Below are positions 30,459 through 50,825 of a DNA stretch of 64,000 nt, piece by piece (position 1 is the first letter of the stretch; each line of letters starts with the position of its first letter). A model generated the notes under the pieces. That model saw only the letters and a program-made list of their open reading frames with translations. It was not told the DNA's origin and searched no databases. Source of the DNA: Lutibacter profundi (lineage in GTDB: Bacteria > Bacteroidota > Bacteroidia > Flavobacteriales > Flavobacteriaceae); assembly GCF_001543325.1 (NCBI RefSeq), contig NZ_CP013355.1, forward strand, positions 868,001 to 932,000, given 5' to 3'. Made by a program: the position numbers and the translations under genes.

Positions 30459-30572
30459 GTATTCTTAATTTAATAATTAATTTTATTTTATATGGTTATT
30501 GAGCGTAGTCAAAATAATATATTTCACAACTTAACATTAACTCCTCCTTCACTCAGCGACAAAAGTGCAAAG

Positions 30573-39128: not shown

Positions 39129-40165
39129 TAATATTTTCCAAATATTTTATGAATTTTTAATTTTCTTAAAAATGATAGTTTTCTCTTTTCTGGAACACCA
39201 TTTTTGGTAATGTATTTTAAACTAGCTTCAACCATTCTTAACGCAGATTTACCATCATTATAAGGATGATATTGCTGTGCAATTTTTAATCGTTTTTCTT
39301 TAAAATTATCGGCTTTAAGATTTGATTCAATTTTACTTGAAAGGTTTTTATATTCATTAGAATTATCCCAAAGAATATTTTTAGAATTACTTTTAAATGT
39401 AATAACAGGTTTATTTAACAGCAAAAACTCATAAACTACAGATGAAGTATCACTCACCATAATATCAGCCATTAGTAAAAACTTAATAATATTGCGTTCT
39501 TCTTCAAAAATTATATTAGCTGTTGATTTTGCTAGTTGTTTATATTCCTCAATTAATTCAACAGCCATTAAATCATGAAACTTTATTAAAATTAAATATT
39601 TCCTGTTTTTTGATAATTCCTTAAATTCTTCAATTAAAAATGATGCCGAAGTTAATGATGGGGAGAATGTTGGTGCATATAAAACTATTATTTTTGCCTT
39701 AAATTTTAATAACAACTCTTTCTTAATTACATTATATTTATGAAGTTCTTCACCATAAATATCTAATTTTGGCCAACCTGTTTCAAGTACTTCAAAATTT
39801 TTAAACTTTTGCTTAAGCTCTAAAAATTTCTTTGTAAAATAAGGGCCTTGCGTTAAATACAAATCAAAATAATGTCTAATTCTAAAATGTCCTTTTTTTT
39901 CACCTGCCAAGCCATGAAATATTTGGACTTTTAACCCTCTTAAATAATAGGGCACTTCATTTCCTGGCACAAAAATAACATCACTTTTAAATTCTTTCAC
40001 CTCTTTCATATCTGATGTAAAAGGCTCATTTTGAAAAGGGAATTGTTTTTGAATGGTTTTTCTAACAAACCACAAATATGAAAAGTTTTTTTCTTTTAGA
40101 ACTTCCATAATAGGCTTTAAAATTCCAAAAGCATACGGATTTTGACAAAAAAGAACCGTTTTCAT
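39128..40165 (-). CDS. CDP-glycerol glycerophosphotransferase family protein (TagB/TagF-like)
   Basis: The protein has 345 residues with GT-B-like motifs of the TagF/TagB family: QIFHGLAGEKKGHFRIRHY (His-Gly site), ETGWPKLD, IVLYAPTFSPSL, LIKFHD and DTSSVVYEFLLLNKPVITFK (CDP-phosphate site). In Gram-positive bacteria these enzymes build teichoic acid by transferring polyol phosphates. In Gram-negatives, homologues act in capsule or O-antigen decoration. No membrane helix; probably peripheral. The gene lies 4 bases after a nucleotidyltransferase gene that could supply the activated substrate. Confidence 0.85.
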   Translation of the reverse strand: MKTVLFCQNPYAFGILKPIMEVLKEKNFSYLWFVRKTIQKQFPFQNEPFTSDMKEVKEFKSDVIFVPGNEVPYYLRGLKVQIFHGLAGEKKGHFRIRHYFDLYLTQGPYFTKKFLELKQKFKNFEVLETGWPKLDIYGEELHKYNVIKKELLLKFKAKIIVLYAPTFSPSLTSASFLIEEFKELSKNRKYLILIKFHDLMAVELIEEYKQLAKSTANIIFEEERNIIKFLLMADIMVSDTSSVVYEFLLLNKPVITFKSNSKNILWDNSNEYKNLSSKIESNLKADNFKEKRLKIAQQYHPYNDGKSALRMVEASLKYITKNGVPEKRKLSFLRKLKIHKIFGKY

Positions 40166-40169
40166 AAAA

Positions 40170-40850
40170 CTAAACTAACTTATTAGCATTTTTAAGATCT
40201 TCTTTAAAATCTACTTCAATACAATTGTATTTGGAAATATCAATTGCTTTAATTTTTAAATTATTTTCTTCAATTGCCATTTCCAATCCTTTTTCAAAAT
40301 AATCGGTATCATCACATTTTTCCAATTGAGAAATAAAAACGTCCAAATCATTTGAAGATATAAAATTAATCCCCACAGCTTCACCCAAGCCATTTTTAAC
40401 TTCTTTAGATAGTTTATTTACAACATTATTTTTTAGCGTGTATTTAACTTCCTCTTCTGCTACCCTCATGGTGTTTACAGCTATAAATGAATTATTTTTT
40501 TTAATATCGTCTTGTAAAACTGATAGTAATTTTTCATCAAAAACAACATCTCCATTAAACCATAAAATAGCTTTTCCTCTGTGTTTTTTTAACGCTTGTA
40601 ATAAACTTTTTGAGGTATTTGTTCTATCAAAAAAGGGATTATATACGTAATTCACTTCAGGAAAACGTTCCATAATTAAATCTTTTTTAAAACCTACAAC
40701 CGTGGTTACATCATTAATATCAAAATACTTGGTAATATTTTTAAGTTGTTTTGCCATAATACTTTCACCATCTTTTAAAAGTGTTAATGGCTTAGGAAAA
40801 GGATTTCCTAATCTAGACCCAATACCTGCAGCAAGAATAACTATTTTCAA
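40170..40850 (-). CDS. NTP-transferase (LicC/cytidylyltransferase-like)
   Basis: This 226-residue single-domain nucleotidyltransferase starts MKIVILAAGIGSRLGNPFPK, the GxGxRx(n)PK NTP-binding motif. Further motifs are KPLTLLKDGESIM, VVGFKKDLIMERFPEV, ILWFNGDVVFDEKLL (metal Asp) and the acidic CIEVDFKEDLKNA end. The pattern resembles the LicC phosphocholine cytidylyltransferase and related glycerol/ribitol-phosphate cytidylyltransferases. With the adjacent TagF-like gene it suggests synthesis of a CDP-activated alcohol or polyol phosphate, though the substrate is unproven. Confidence 0.82.
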   Translation of the reverse strand: MKIVILAAGIGSRLGNPFPKPLTLLKDGESIMAKQLKNITKYFDINDVTTVVGFKKDLIMERFPEVNYVYNPFFDRTNTSKSLLQALKKHRGKAILWFNGDVVFDEKLLSVLQDDIKKNNSFIAVNTMRVAEEEVKYTLKNNVVNKLSKEVKNGLGEAVGINFISSNDLDVFISQLEKCDDTDYFEKGLEMAIEENNLKIKAIDISKYNCIEVDFKEDLKNANKLV

Positions 40851-40861
40851 ATGTTTTATTT

Positions 40862-41072
40862 TAATGTTTTAGAGGTCAGTAGATAGTTTCATACAATTAA
40901 TTTAATAATTCTATTTGTTTGTGTCAGGTCGAGCGCAGTCGAGACCTATTTATGTGTGATATAGTTCTCGACTGCGCTCGAACAGACAAATTATTTTGCA
41001 TTACACTTTTTATATTCCGTGTTTTACCATTTCAAATTTACATGTAATTATCTACTGACCTCTATAATGTTT
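40862..41072. mobile_element. MITE-like element copy 1 with 8-bp target duplication
   Basis: The 195-bp element (40870-41064) has perfect 16-bp terminal inverted repeats, TAGAGGTCAGTAGATA at 40870-40885 and its complement at 41049-41064. TAATGTTT flanks it directly on both sides (40862-40869 and 41065-41072), an 8-bp target-site duplication. Inside, TCGAGCGCAGTCGAGA (40929-40944) and its complement (40966-40981) form a perfect 16-bp stem. There is no ORF. A second copy lies at 50565-50725. Confidence 0.88.
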
Positions 41073-41114
41073 TATAAATTCAAGCAAAAATAAGACATTA
41101 AAATTTAATTCTAT

Positions 41115-41930
41115 TTACACAGCAACATCATTTTCACGAAGGGCATCATTTAACGAGGTTTTTTTATTGGTACTTTCCTTTCGTTTTCCTATAATCATAG
41201 CACAAGGCACATTAAATTCTCCTGCCGTAAATTGTTTTTTATAACTCCCCGGAATTACCACTGAACGTGCAGGCACTCTTCCTTTTAGCTCAATTGGTTT
41301 GTCTCCAGTAACATCAATAATTTTAGTACTCATTGTTAAAACTACTCCTGCTCCCAAAACAGCCTCTTTTTCAACACGTACACCTTCTACCACAATACAA
41401 CGTGACCCTATAAATACATCATCTTCTATTATTACTGGTGCAGCTTGCAAAGGTTCTAAAACACCACCAATACCAACACCACCACTTAAATGTACATTTT
41501 TACCTATTTGAGCACAACTACCAACGGTTGCCCATGTATCAACCATCGTTCCTTCATCAACATACGCCCCAATATTTATATAACTTGGCATTAAAATAGT
41601 TCCTTTAGAAATATAGGCTCCATAGCGTGCAACTGCAGGTGGTACAACTCTAATTCCTTTTTCTTTATAGCCTGTTTTGAGTGGAATTTTATCATGGTAC
41701 TCAAAAATACCTACTTCCTGAGTTTCCATCTTTTGTATTGGAAAATATAGAACCACCGCTTTTTTAATCCATTCGTTAACCTGCCAACCATTATTTGTAG
41801 GTTCTGCAACTCGTAACTTTCCACTATCTAATAAACTAATAACACTTCTTATAGCTTGTTTAGTTGAAGTATTTTTTAATAATTCTCTATTTTCCCAAGC
41901 GTTTTCAATTTGTTCTCTTAACAACTTCAT
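41115..41930 (-). CDS. dapD: 2,3,4,5-tetrahydropyridine-2,6-dicarboxylate N-succinyltransferase
   Basis: This 271-residue left-handed beta-helix enzyme of the succinylase branch of lysine/diaminopimelate synthesis has N-terminal helical domain KLLREQIENAWENRELL, then RVVPPAVARYGAYISKGTIL, MPSYINIGAYVDEGTMVDTW, GKNVHLSGGVGIGGVLEPLQ and DVFIGSRCIVVEGVRVEKEA hexapeptide repeats. Length and motifs are standard. It stands alone, 264 bases from the next co-oriented gene, with the MITE copy 1 in that gap. Confidence 0.96.
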   Translation of the reverse strand: MKLLREQIENAWENRELLKNTSTKQAIRSVISLLDSGKLRVAEPTNNGWQVNEWIKKAVVLYFPIQKMETQEVGIFEYHDKIPLKTGYKEKGIRVVPPAVARYGAYISKGTILMPSYINIGAYVDEGTMVDTWATVGSCAQIGKNVHLSGGVGIGGVLEPLQAAPVIIEDDVFIGSRCIVVEGVRVEKEAVLGAGVVLTMSTKIIDVTGDKPIELKGRVPARSVVIPGSYKKQFTAGEFNVPCAMIIGKRKESTNKKTSLNDALRENDVAV

Positions 41931-41989
41931 ATTTTAACTTCTTTATATGGCAAATATAAAATTAAAATAGTTTTATATTTCAATTTTTG

Positions 41990-41997
41990 TAAATTTG
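41990..41997 (+). promoter_or_regulatory. Candidate -7 element (TAAATTTG) of ruvX
   Basis: TAAATTTG fits TAnnTTTG. It overlaps the upstream in-frame TTG at 41995, which argues that translation starts further on, at 42025. Confidence 0.45.
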
Positions 41998-42024
41998 AAC
42001 ACTTTTAAAATTTATGTTAGTATT

Positions 42025-42435
42025 TTGGGTAGAATTTTAGCAATTGATTTCGGAGAAAAAAGAACTGGAATAGCAGTAACTGATGAATTACAAATTATTG
42101 CATCTGGACTTACAACTATTCAAACTAAAAATATTTTTTCTTTTTTAACTGAGTATTTAAAAAATGAAAAGGTTGAATTATTTGTTGTGGGCGAACCTAA
42201 ACAAATGAATAATAAGCCCAGTGAGAGCGAACAGTTTATAGCGCCTTTTGTTCAAAAATTAAAAACAACTTTTCCTAAAATTCCTATAAAAAGAATAGAT
42301 GAACGTTTTACTTCAAAAATGGCTTTTCAAACGATGATTGATAGTGGTTTAACTAAAAAACAGCGTCAAAACAAAGCATTGATTGACGAAATAAGTGCAA
42401 CTATAATTTTACAATCTTATTTAAATTATAAATAA
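42025..42435 (+). CDS. ruvX: Putative pre-16S rRNA nuclease / Holliday junction resolvase, YqgF family
   Basis: From TTG at 42025 the protein is 136 residues, beginning GRILAIDFGEKRTGIAVTDE after the initiator Met. Family members start at exactly this point, and a -7 element covers the earlier TTG at 41995. The RNase H-like fold shows the first catalytic Asp in AIDFGEKRTG, VVGEPKQMNNKPSE, the Glu in RIDERFTSKMA and the Asp in LIDEISATIIL. The family processes pre-16S rRNA 5' ends; recombination roles are debated. It is followed after 3 bases by the DUF1919 gene. Confidence 0.9.
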   Translation: MGRILAIDFGEKRTGIAVTDELQIIASGLTTIQTKNIFSFLTEYLKNEKVELFVVGEPKQMNNKPSESEQFIAPFVQKLKTTFPKIPIKRIDERFTSKMAFQTMIDSGLTKKQRQNKALIDEISATIILQSYLNYK

Positions 42436-42438
42436 TAA

Positions 42439-43092
42439 ATGTTAAGGATTACATCTGTATTTATAAGGCGGAAATTTAGAAGAATCTTCAAAAATTTTTT
42501 AAACAAAAAAGATATAAAATCTTTAAAAAATAAAGAATTTGTAATAATTGCAAATAATTGCTGGGGCGGTGAAGTTTATCAATGGTATAAAAAACCTTAT
42601 AATTCTCCTTTTGTTGGGCTATTTCTGTATAGTCCTTGTTTTATAAAGGTTGTTTCCAAATTTGACCATTATATGTCTAAAAAATTAAAATTCACTAAAA
42701 TATCGAAATATTTAAAAGAAGAACAAAACTACCCAATAGGTTTAATTGGTGATGCTGAAATTCATTTTTTACACTACAAAACAGAAGAGGAAGCTATTGA
42801 AAAATGGAATAGAAGAAAAAATAGAATGTTAGAAGTCACAGACAAAAACAATTACTTTTTTAAACTATGCGATATGTATAATACTGATGAAAATATTTTA
42901 AATGAATTTCATAAATTGCCCTATAAAAATAAAGTATCGTTTGGTATAAAAGATTACGCTTCATTAAAAGATAAAAATCATATTAAAATAAATGAAGTAG
43001 ATAAAAAAACTGGAAAGCATGTTCCAAATGGTGTAAAACTATACAAACTCACCTTTTTATACTTTGATATTACAAACTGGCTAAAGAATTAA
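42439..43092 (+). CDS. DUF1919 family protein (exopolysaccharide-associated)
   Basis: The protein has 217 residues with the DUF1919 layout: EFVIIANNCWGGEVYQWYKK, YNSPFVGLFLYSPCFIKVV, YPIGLIGDAEIHFLHYKTEE and EAIEKWNRRKNRML. The family is found in capsular or exopolysaccharide loci and has no proven activity. The very basic N-terminus (RRKFRRIFKNFLNKK) is not a signal peptide. It is inserted between ruvX and def, with 3 bases to ruvX, so it may be cotranscribed with a housekeeping gene; this looks like a later arrival. Confidence 0.85.
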   Translation: MLRITSVFIRRKFRRIFKNFLNKKDIKSLKNKEFVIIANNCWGGEVYQWYKKPYNSPFVGLFLYSPCFIKVVSKFDHYMSKKLKFTKISKYLKEEQNYPIGLIGDAEIHFLHYKTEEEAIEKWNRRKNRMLEVTDKNNYFFKLCDMYNTDENILNEFHKLPYKNKVSFGIKDYASLKDKNHIKINEVDKKTGKHVPNGVKLYKLTFLYFDITNWLKN

Positions 43093-50476: not shown

Positions 50477-50825
50477 ATTTAAAAAAAAATGATAAATATT
50501 CTTTTTTATGAAGATATTTATGATGGAAGTATTACTGATTTCTTTAGATTAAGTAATAATTTTTTAGAGGTCAATAGATAGTTTCATACAATTAATTTAA
50601 TAAATTCTATTTATGTGTGATATAGTTCTCGACTGCGCTCGAACAGACAAATTATTTTGCATTACACTTTTTATATTCAGTGTTTTACCATTTCAAATTT
50701 AGATGTAGTTATCTACTGACCTCTAAAATTTTTAATAAAAAAAATATATTAAAAGTAACCAAAAAAAATTAAATATCTGAATTTAAATGTATTACGAAGT
50801 TCGCAACCCTTTTACTTTTACGCTT
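50477..50825. other. Intergenic region holding the second MITE-like copy
   Basis: This 349-base gap between the kinase start and the YwqK-like gene end contains the element at 50565-50725. The rest is AT-rich with no ORF or clear terminator. Confidence 0.7.
50557..50733. mobile_element. MITE-like element copy 2
   Basis: The 161-bp element (50565-50725) has the same ends as copy 1, TAGAGGTCAATAGATA left (one mismatch) and the perfect complement of TAGAGGTCAGTAGATA right. It is flanked by TAATTTTT (50557-50564) and AAATTTTT (50726-50733), an 8-bp duplication with one difference. Compared with copy 1 it lacks 35 bp between two CTATTT repeats, which removes the left arm of the inner hairpin. The remaining sequence is nearly identical. 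Confidence 0.85.

Follow-up and report, generated by a model that had tools for sequence, protein, structure and literature searches.

A family of short transposons sharing ends with IS1595-family insertion sequences and carrying a nested REP doublet in Lutibacter profundi and other Flavobacteriaceae

The window, a 64-kb stretch of the Lutibacter profundi genome, contains a 195-bp segment with inverted ends, duplicated flanks and an internal hairpin, and a shorter relative of it. What are these elements, what moves them, and what is the hairpin? A sequence-only reading had proposed a non-autonomous transposon family with two copies in the window and common 16-bp ends. The ends bear this out, as the motif TAGAGGTCAGTAGATA at three or fewer mismatches occurred four times in the window compared with 0.39 expected, and 0/100 shuffles reached four, which ruled out chance occurrence of the ends. 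Copy 1 (40870–41064, + strand, 195 bp) has the perfect 8-bp duplication reported on each side, TAATGTTT at 40862–40869 and 41065–41072. Copy 2 (50565–50725, + strand, 161 bp) has terminal inverted repeats at 50565–50580 (+, one mismatch) and 50710–50725 (−), and its flanks TAATTTTT (50557–50564) and AAATTTTT (50726–50733) form a near duplication, 7/8, missing from the earlier description. As that description had it, neither copy contained an ORF (none of at least 80 aa), and this also ruled out that the two copies were part of a larger repeated gene family, an outcome it had named as fatal to its own proposal. A degenerate half of the hairpin motif had been placed near 30503. The motif is present, at 30501–30512, but as a single weak match with no MITE context where 0.6 are expected by chance in the window, and so is indistinguishable from a random hit. 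A nucleotidyltransferase-like ORF (40170–40850, −; window positions 40848–40862) starts with TTG 11 bp from copy 1, which lies upstream of it, and the hairpins of copy 1 would fall within the leader of that gene.

The L. profundi genome, from a deep-sea bacterium, is one contig of 2,966,978 bases. Searching it with copy 1 recovered 12 full or nearly full copies (L001–L012) and further fragments, and 10 of the 12 had target duplications of 7–8/8: seven were 8/8 (L001, L002, L003, L005, L007, L008 and L009) and three were 7/8 (L004, L006 and L010). Flanks matched at only 4/8 and 3/8 in L011 and L012. Before the flanks were read, the right end of L007 and the left end of L012 were each shifted by 2 bp so that they coincided with the terminus of the inverted repeat. 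Family elements were about 195 bp long (161–197 bp), free of ORFs and bounded by the 16-bp inverted ends. The target sites were AT-rich, and in a simple ORF scan none of the copies lay inside an ORF of at least 90 aa. Compared with L003, the L. profundi copies showed 70 substitutions and 5 indels. The elements are short, non-coding and repeated in the genome, and they have terminal inverted repeats and target duplications; the family is a MITE family. One decayed copy lies in two pieces at 2649.0–2649.2 kb. A transposase between two decayed copies at 2646–2649 kb was considered and rejected, as the ORFs there were not transposase-like by eye. L059 (G000:C1:584244-584415), a MITE-like stretch holding a single REP arm, occurs as two tandem copies about 117 bp apart. 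In the published account of the L. profundi genome, the terms transposase, insertion sequence, palindrom and mobile do not appear.

A comparison with empty sites in relatives had been proposed as a check, and we looked for such sites by searching 38 genus genomes with window positions 39900–42450. The alignments of the two flanks share exactly 8 bp in G036, and the target is therefore present once there (G036:C57:8496-8503). Joined flanks crossed the junction in 7/15 aligned loci (L262, L271, L272, L273, L275, L277 and L280), most cleanly in L262 (G011), L273 (G036) and L277 (G019), while the joined-flank alignments of the other 8/15 fell short of usefully crossing it. Empty sites for copy 1 are thus present in related genomes, and the second outcome that had been named as fatal to the proposal did not arise either.

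The helper transposase had been reported as lying outside the window, and a probable partner was found elsewhere. Searched at one or fewer mismatches, the 16-bp end was found in 38/397 Flavobacteriaceae genomes, with reversed control matches in 13/397, so that genomes with a single match are near background. Several inward-facing pairs of the same ends as those of the MITE lie 958–960 bp apart in other genera. IS-sized elements with 8/8 duplications were L149, L150, L151, L152 (two), L158, L130, L120 and three in G711. A reading frame of about 300 codons runs without interruption in L150, L152 and L158 but not in L149 and L151. The proteins of L150 and L152, the two tested, matched PF12762 at 4.9e-16 and 1.8e-16 and NF033547, IS1595 family transposase, at 5.9e-44 and 2.3e-47; the autonomous partner encodes an IS1595-type DDE transposase. 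The intact ISs have 8-bp target duplications that match at 8/8, and duplications of this length are typical of the IS1595 family. Ends of that family typically start with GG, whereas those found here start TAGAGG. In L152 (G294) two ISs point the same way, at 58–1016 and 1029–1987, only 12 bp apart and each with its own 8/8 duplication.

An intact IS with matching ends, which had been suggested as a search target, was found in other genera, and no such transposase was found in L. profundi. The L. profundi genome had no protein match to the IS transposase (6/38 genus genomes did) and no match to the PF12762 profile (4/38 did). Within the genus, Lutibacter genome G034 has a 960-bp relative whose ends begin TTGAGGTC, whose duplications are 8/8 and whose transposase is 67% identical to the query. 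Because no IS1595-family transposase was found in its genome, the L. profundi MITE family looks stranded. Among the loci scanned, no genome held both a MITE and an IS of these ends, a weak result, given that elements were detected through their ends. An order-wide search found the end in 15/395 genomes, and the loci scanned included the three G711 ISs and no MITE with a duplication of at least 7/8. An exact end-pair scan of viral contigs returned 0.

The hairpin described inside copy 1 is a REP heterodimer, a REPIN-like pair of TGTC-footed palindromes, and this nested doublet recurs at a near-fixed spacing across genera. On the short-linker side of copy 1, the terminal inverted repeat (40870–40885, +) and short linker (40886–40921, +) lead to an arm of GG-stem type (40922–40947, +) with its TGTC foot at 40922–40925, and the distance from end to foot is 52 bp including the inverted repeat. 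The second arm, of GT-stem type (40964–40988, −), has its foot, GACA on the + strand, at 40985–40988 and is followed by the long linker (40989–41048, +) and the terminal inverted repeat of that side (41049–41064, −), a foot-to-end distance of 76 bp including the inverted repeat. The inverted pair TCGAGCGCAGTCGAGA occupies 40929–40944 and 40966–40981. Copy 2 has lost the GG-type arm and keeps the GT-type arm (50625–50649, −) with one motif at 50627–50642. Loss of the hairpin by deletion between CTATTT repeats, as originally proposed, is still the best reading, with one arm left in place, because both arms are kept in 10/12 L. profundi copies.

REP doublets of this kind also occur outside the MITE. 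The motif TCGAGCGCAGTCGAGA at one or fewer mismatches was present in 24/38 genus genomes and its reversed control in none, and the paired form GAGCGCAGTCGAGA-N8..36-TCTCGACTGCGCTC was present in 80/397 Flavobacteriaceae genomes, representing 65/237 genera, with 0 matches for the reversed control. In those 80 genomes the core pair mostly occurred without transposon ends. MITE ends flanked both sides in 0/30 examples (one per genome), and an end-like sequence stood on one side of L191. In 20 further examples most alignments stopped near the feet, a few continued for up to about 30 bp more, and one example was a MITE. Feet bound the pairs, with TGTC in 49/60 arms and CGTC in 1/60. Variable stem positions paired in 60/60 and 59/60 of these arms compared with shuffle maxima of 44 and 38, and each arm therefore forms its own hairpin. 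The two arms of one standalone doublet shared stem letters in 0/30. One long hairpin between both arms was thus rejected as the selected structure, though MITE L325, with equal arms, runs counter to the standalone pattern. Conserved-foot palindromes, hairpin arms and inverted doublets repeated in genomes are the marks of REP and REPIN sequences; we call these CGTC-like rather than members of the CGTC-tagged superfamily because the foot is TGTC. Rfam gave two weak matches, neither of which reached the gathering score. Recent copying is suggested for some standalone doublets, since three in G217 (L315–L317) share their inter-arm spacer at 83–90% identity. The REP arms of several MITE cores from different genera have a longer inserted loop (AAGATAAACTAAA-like): L057 (G000:C1:2649012-2649210), L160, L124, L223, L224 (G094) and L138 (G174).

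We examined the layout of ends and core at 90 loci, comprising the listed places of the 16-bp end outside L. profundi except G087:C45, the G011 loci and three contigs. Spurious re-pairings were dropped (L165 201–571, L179 848–1291 and both L234 rows), as was L228 (108 bp) for being too short, and pairs of 150–330 bp with duplications <6/8 went uncounted (L227, L142, L138, L124, L223, L131 and L153), of which L142, L138, L124 and L223 carried the core. The doublet or one arm was present in 16/17 end pairs of 150–330 bp with duplications of at least 6/8, and the core was present in 0/11 end pairs of 942–961 bp, the size of the IS. The short elements came from eight genera (G174, G312, G090, G120, G369, G011, G420 and G094) and CSMAG_274, a MAG without a genus; G011 (Lutibacter) supplied 4 of the 17, elements of one genus are not independent, and the lineages are few and all chosen through one end sequence. 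The exception was G261 (L125/L161), a 193-bp element with the same ends, an 8/8 duplication and no REP core, in a genome with no match to the resident REP pattern. Derivation of the MITE from an IS by partial deletion of the transposase gene was rejected, as the IS-sized elements have no core and the linkers are unlike the IS reading frame by eye.

Distances from foot to end were 45–54 bp on one side and 71–77 bp on the other in 21/24 elements (G120b re-measured), and ten hand-picked values, one per lineage with Lutibacter twice, gave 49.4 (sd 2.1) and 74.7 (sd 1.9). The three exceptions were G011_241 (50/92), G369c (57/172) and G174 (30/50, with an 8/8 duplication). G094 and G120b have extra DNA inside the core, yet their feet lie at 48–53 and 75–77 bp. 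In L325, which was detected through its core and not its ends, the sequences most like the ends, with four mismatches each, lie at 52 and 77 bp, and the flanks match at 5/8. As a side observation to which we attach no weight, 50 + 76 bp is about 12 helical turns.

The layout was also polarised. Leaving out G174b, the short-side arm had stem GG in 13/15 elements, the long-side arm had GT in 13/15, and both held in 11/15; GG+GT occurred in 0/30 standalone doublets, but in 2/19 end-less doublets of the second set. Base 17 was G in 12/16 on the short side, like the downstream end of the IS (7/8), and A in 12/16 on the long side, like the upstream end (8/8). The ends of G420 were reversed in polarity. 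Linkers were more alike than shuffles inside single genera, for G011 against CSMAG_274 and, weakly, for the one pair G011_261 and G174. Compared in register, the long side of L. profundi weakly resembled those of G011 and CSMAG_274, and two pairs with G312 stood out for the short side, a comparison over just 19 bases.

We consider it very probable that the MITE family has been moved in trans by the 958–960-bp IS1595-family ISs and goes back to one old chimera with a REP doublet whose spacing was kept. IS ends and a REP doublet would have fused once in an ancestor, and the product would then have spread through the Flavobacteriaceae, multiplying in genomes with a helper IS and becoming stranded in those, such as L. 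profundi, that had lost it. Extra DNA within the core would be tolerated while the foot-to-end distances mostly stay. We favour one old chimera, rather than repeated capture, as the likely origin because the elements have lengths and polarity in common despite little shared linker sequence. There is moderate evidence that the spacing is selected, most simply through transposition: linkers with nearly no similarity left should have drifted in length if length were neutral, because indels occur (5 to 70 substitutions). Probably the spacing is kept because transposition needs it. More speculatively, doublet and spacing may be kept because the ends of so short an element meet via hairpin extrusion or a bound host protein; that hairpins or such a protein bring the ends together is our guess.

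The one-arm L. profundi copies L010 and L011 are both singletons, which agrees with a need for the core and does not prove it. Copy 2 of the window still has its 7/8 duplication with one arm lost, which may count against a need for the full core, and the core is not strictly needed because the G261 element has the ends and an 8/8 duplication without it. Points against a single chimera moved by the IS are the 3/24 breaks in spacing, the joint GG+GT pattern in only 11/15 elements and its presence in 2/19 end-less doublets, the reversed G420 ends and the 5/8 flanks of L325. We advance tentatively, and regard as doubtful in its full form, the proposal that these elements are a cross-genus MITE class of DDE-type transposons in which the REP doublet has taken on a polarised structural role. 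Its feet would be held at about 50 and 76 bp from the ends, and extrusion or binding of the hairpins would then allow both ends of a ~195-bp element to come together.

The strongest competitor, though an unlikely one in our estimation, is that the core is kept for a role in host or element RNA, as a terminator or mRNA-end hairpin, with the spacing frozen by descent and not selected. Folding of the strand is much more stable than that of shuffled sequences (DNA parameters, z −10.05), a start codon lies just downstream of copy 1, and MITE hairpins commonly act in RNA according to the excerpted text of PMC3733652. However, a terminator scan found 0 intrinsic-terminator-like sites at copy 1, near-fixed distances to the ends are not predicted by an RNA role, and the indels among the L. 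profundi copies speak against lengths that are simply frozen.

Repeated independent capture, in which each genus took up a resident REP doublet anew and the layouts are alike by chance or because the transposase prefers a certain size, seems to us clearly improbable. Material for capture is at hand, as REP doublets were resident in 11/12 genomes examined (MITE hosts and G361), linkers are mostly unrelated between genera, GG+GT doublets exist without the ends too, and the G420 MITE core has the CGA and CGG variants in a genome with a mix of such REPs. Capture anew does not readily give foot-to-end distances that are near-fixed and asymmetric on both sides in 21/24 elements, the assignment of GG to the short arm and GT to the long arm in 13/15 each, or the weak in-register similarity of the long-side linkers of L. 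profundi, G011 and CSMAG_274. That standalone doublets are MITEs that lost their ends is very improbable, for although decayed MITE pieces surround REP arms in L. profundi at 2646–2649 kb and 2290.7 kb, the core pair spans 65/237 genera, 0/30 one-per-genome examples have ends on both sides, and shared similarity mostly stops near the feet.

A DDE-type MITE whose REP doublet keeps a conserved position offers one route for the spread of such palindromes, and a cross-genus MITE class, if there is one, would be a vehicle, unassigned before, for REPs without their own transposase. The lineages offer a natural series for asking whether hairpins in very short transposons help the ends meet, and L. 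profundi a MITE family without any detectable helper. In the open-licence literature, the titles and abstracts listed for IS1595, MITEs, REPs and RAYT/REPIN of Bacteroidetes held no description of this MITE family, and we found no paper joining IS1595, MITE and Flavobacteria. Papers whose text matched the core letters were unrelated, judged by title.

The MITE has its ends and 8-bp duplications in common with the IS1595-family ISs; it lacks a transposase, and they lack the REP core. Prokaryotic MITEs are described in the excerpted text of PMC10969869 as short, ORF-free, intergenic elements with terminal inverted repeats and target duplications that are moved in trans. The family reported here has the same traits and in addition a REP doublet at a conserved internal place in several genera. 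CGTC-tagged REPs, in the excerpted account of Di Nocera et al. (PMC3733652), are small palindromes, often in head-to-head dimers, also found in Bacteroidetes and without a dedicated transposase; the doublets here are alike as dimers of tagged palindromes and differ in the foot, predominantly TGTC. The same excerpt mentions a small number of REP dimers that lie within longer palindromes, A. variabilis GTAG-15 and H. neapolitanus CGTC-1, and QMITE2 of Coxiella burnetii is a MITE with a GTAG REP (PMC10969869, likewise excerpted). In all of these, as in the elements described here, a longer element with inverted repeats encloses a REP or REP dimer. The transposase family of the outer ends and a layout shared across genera, which are not part of those excerpted descriptions, are given here.
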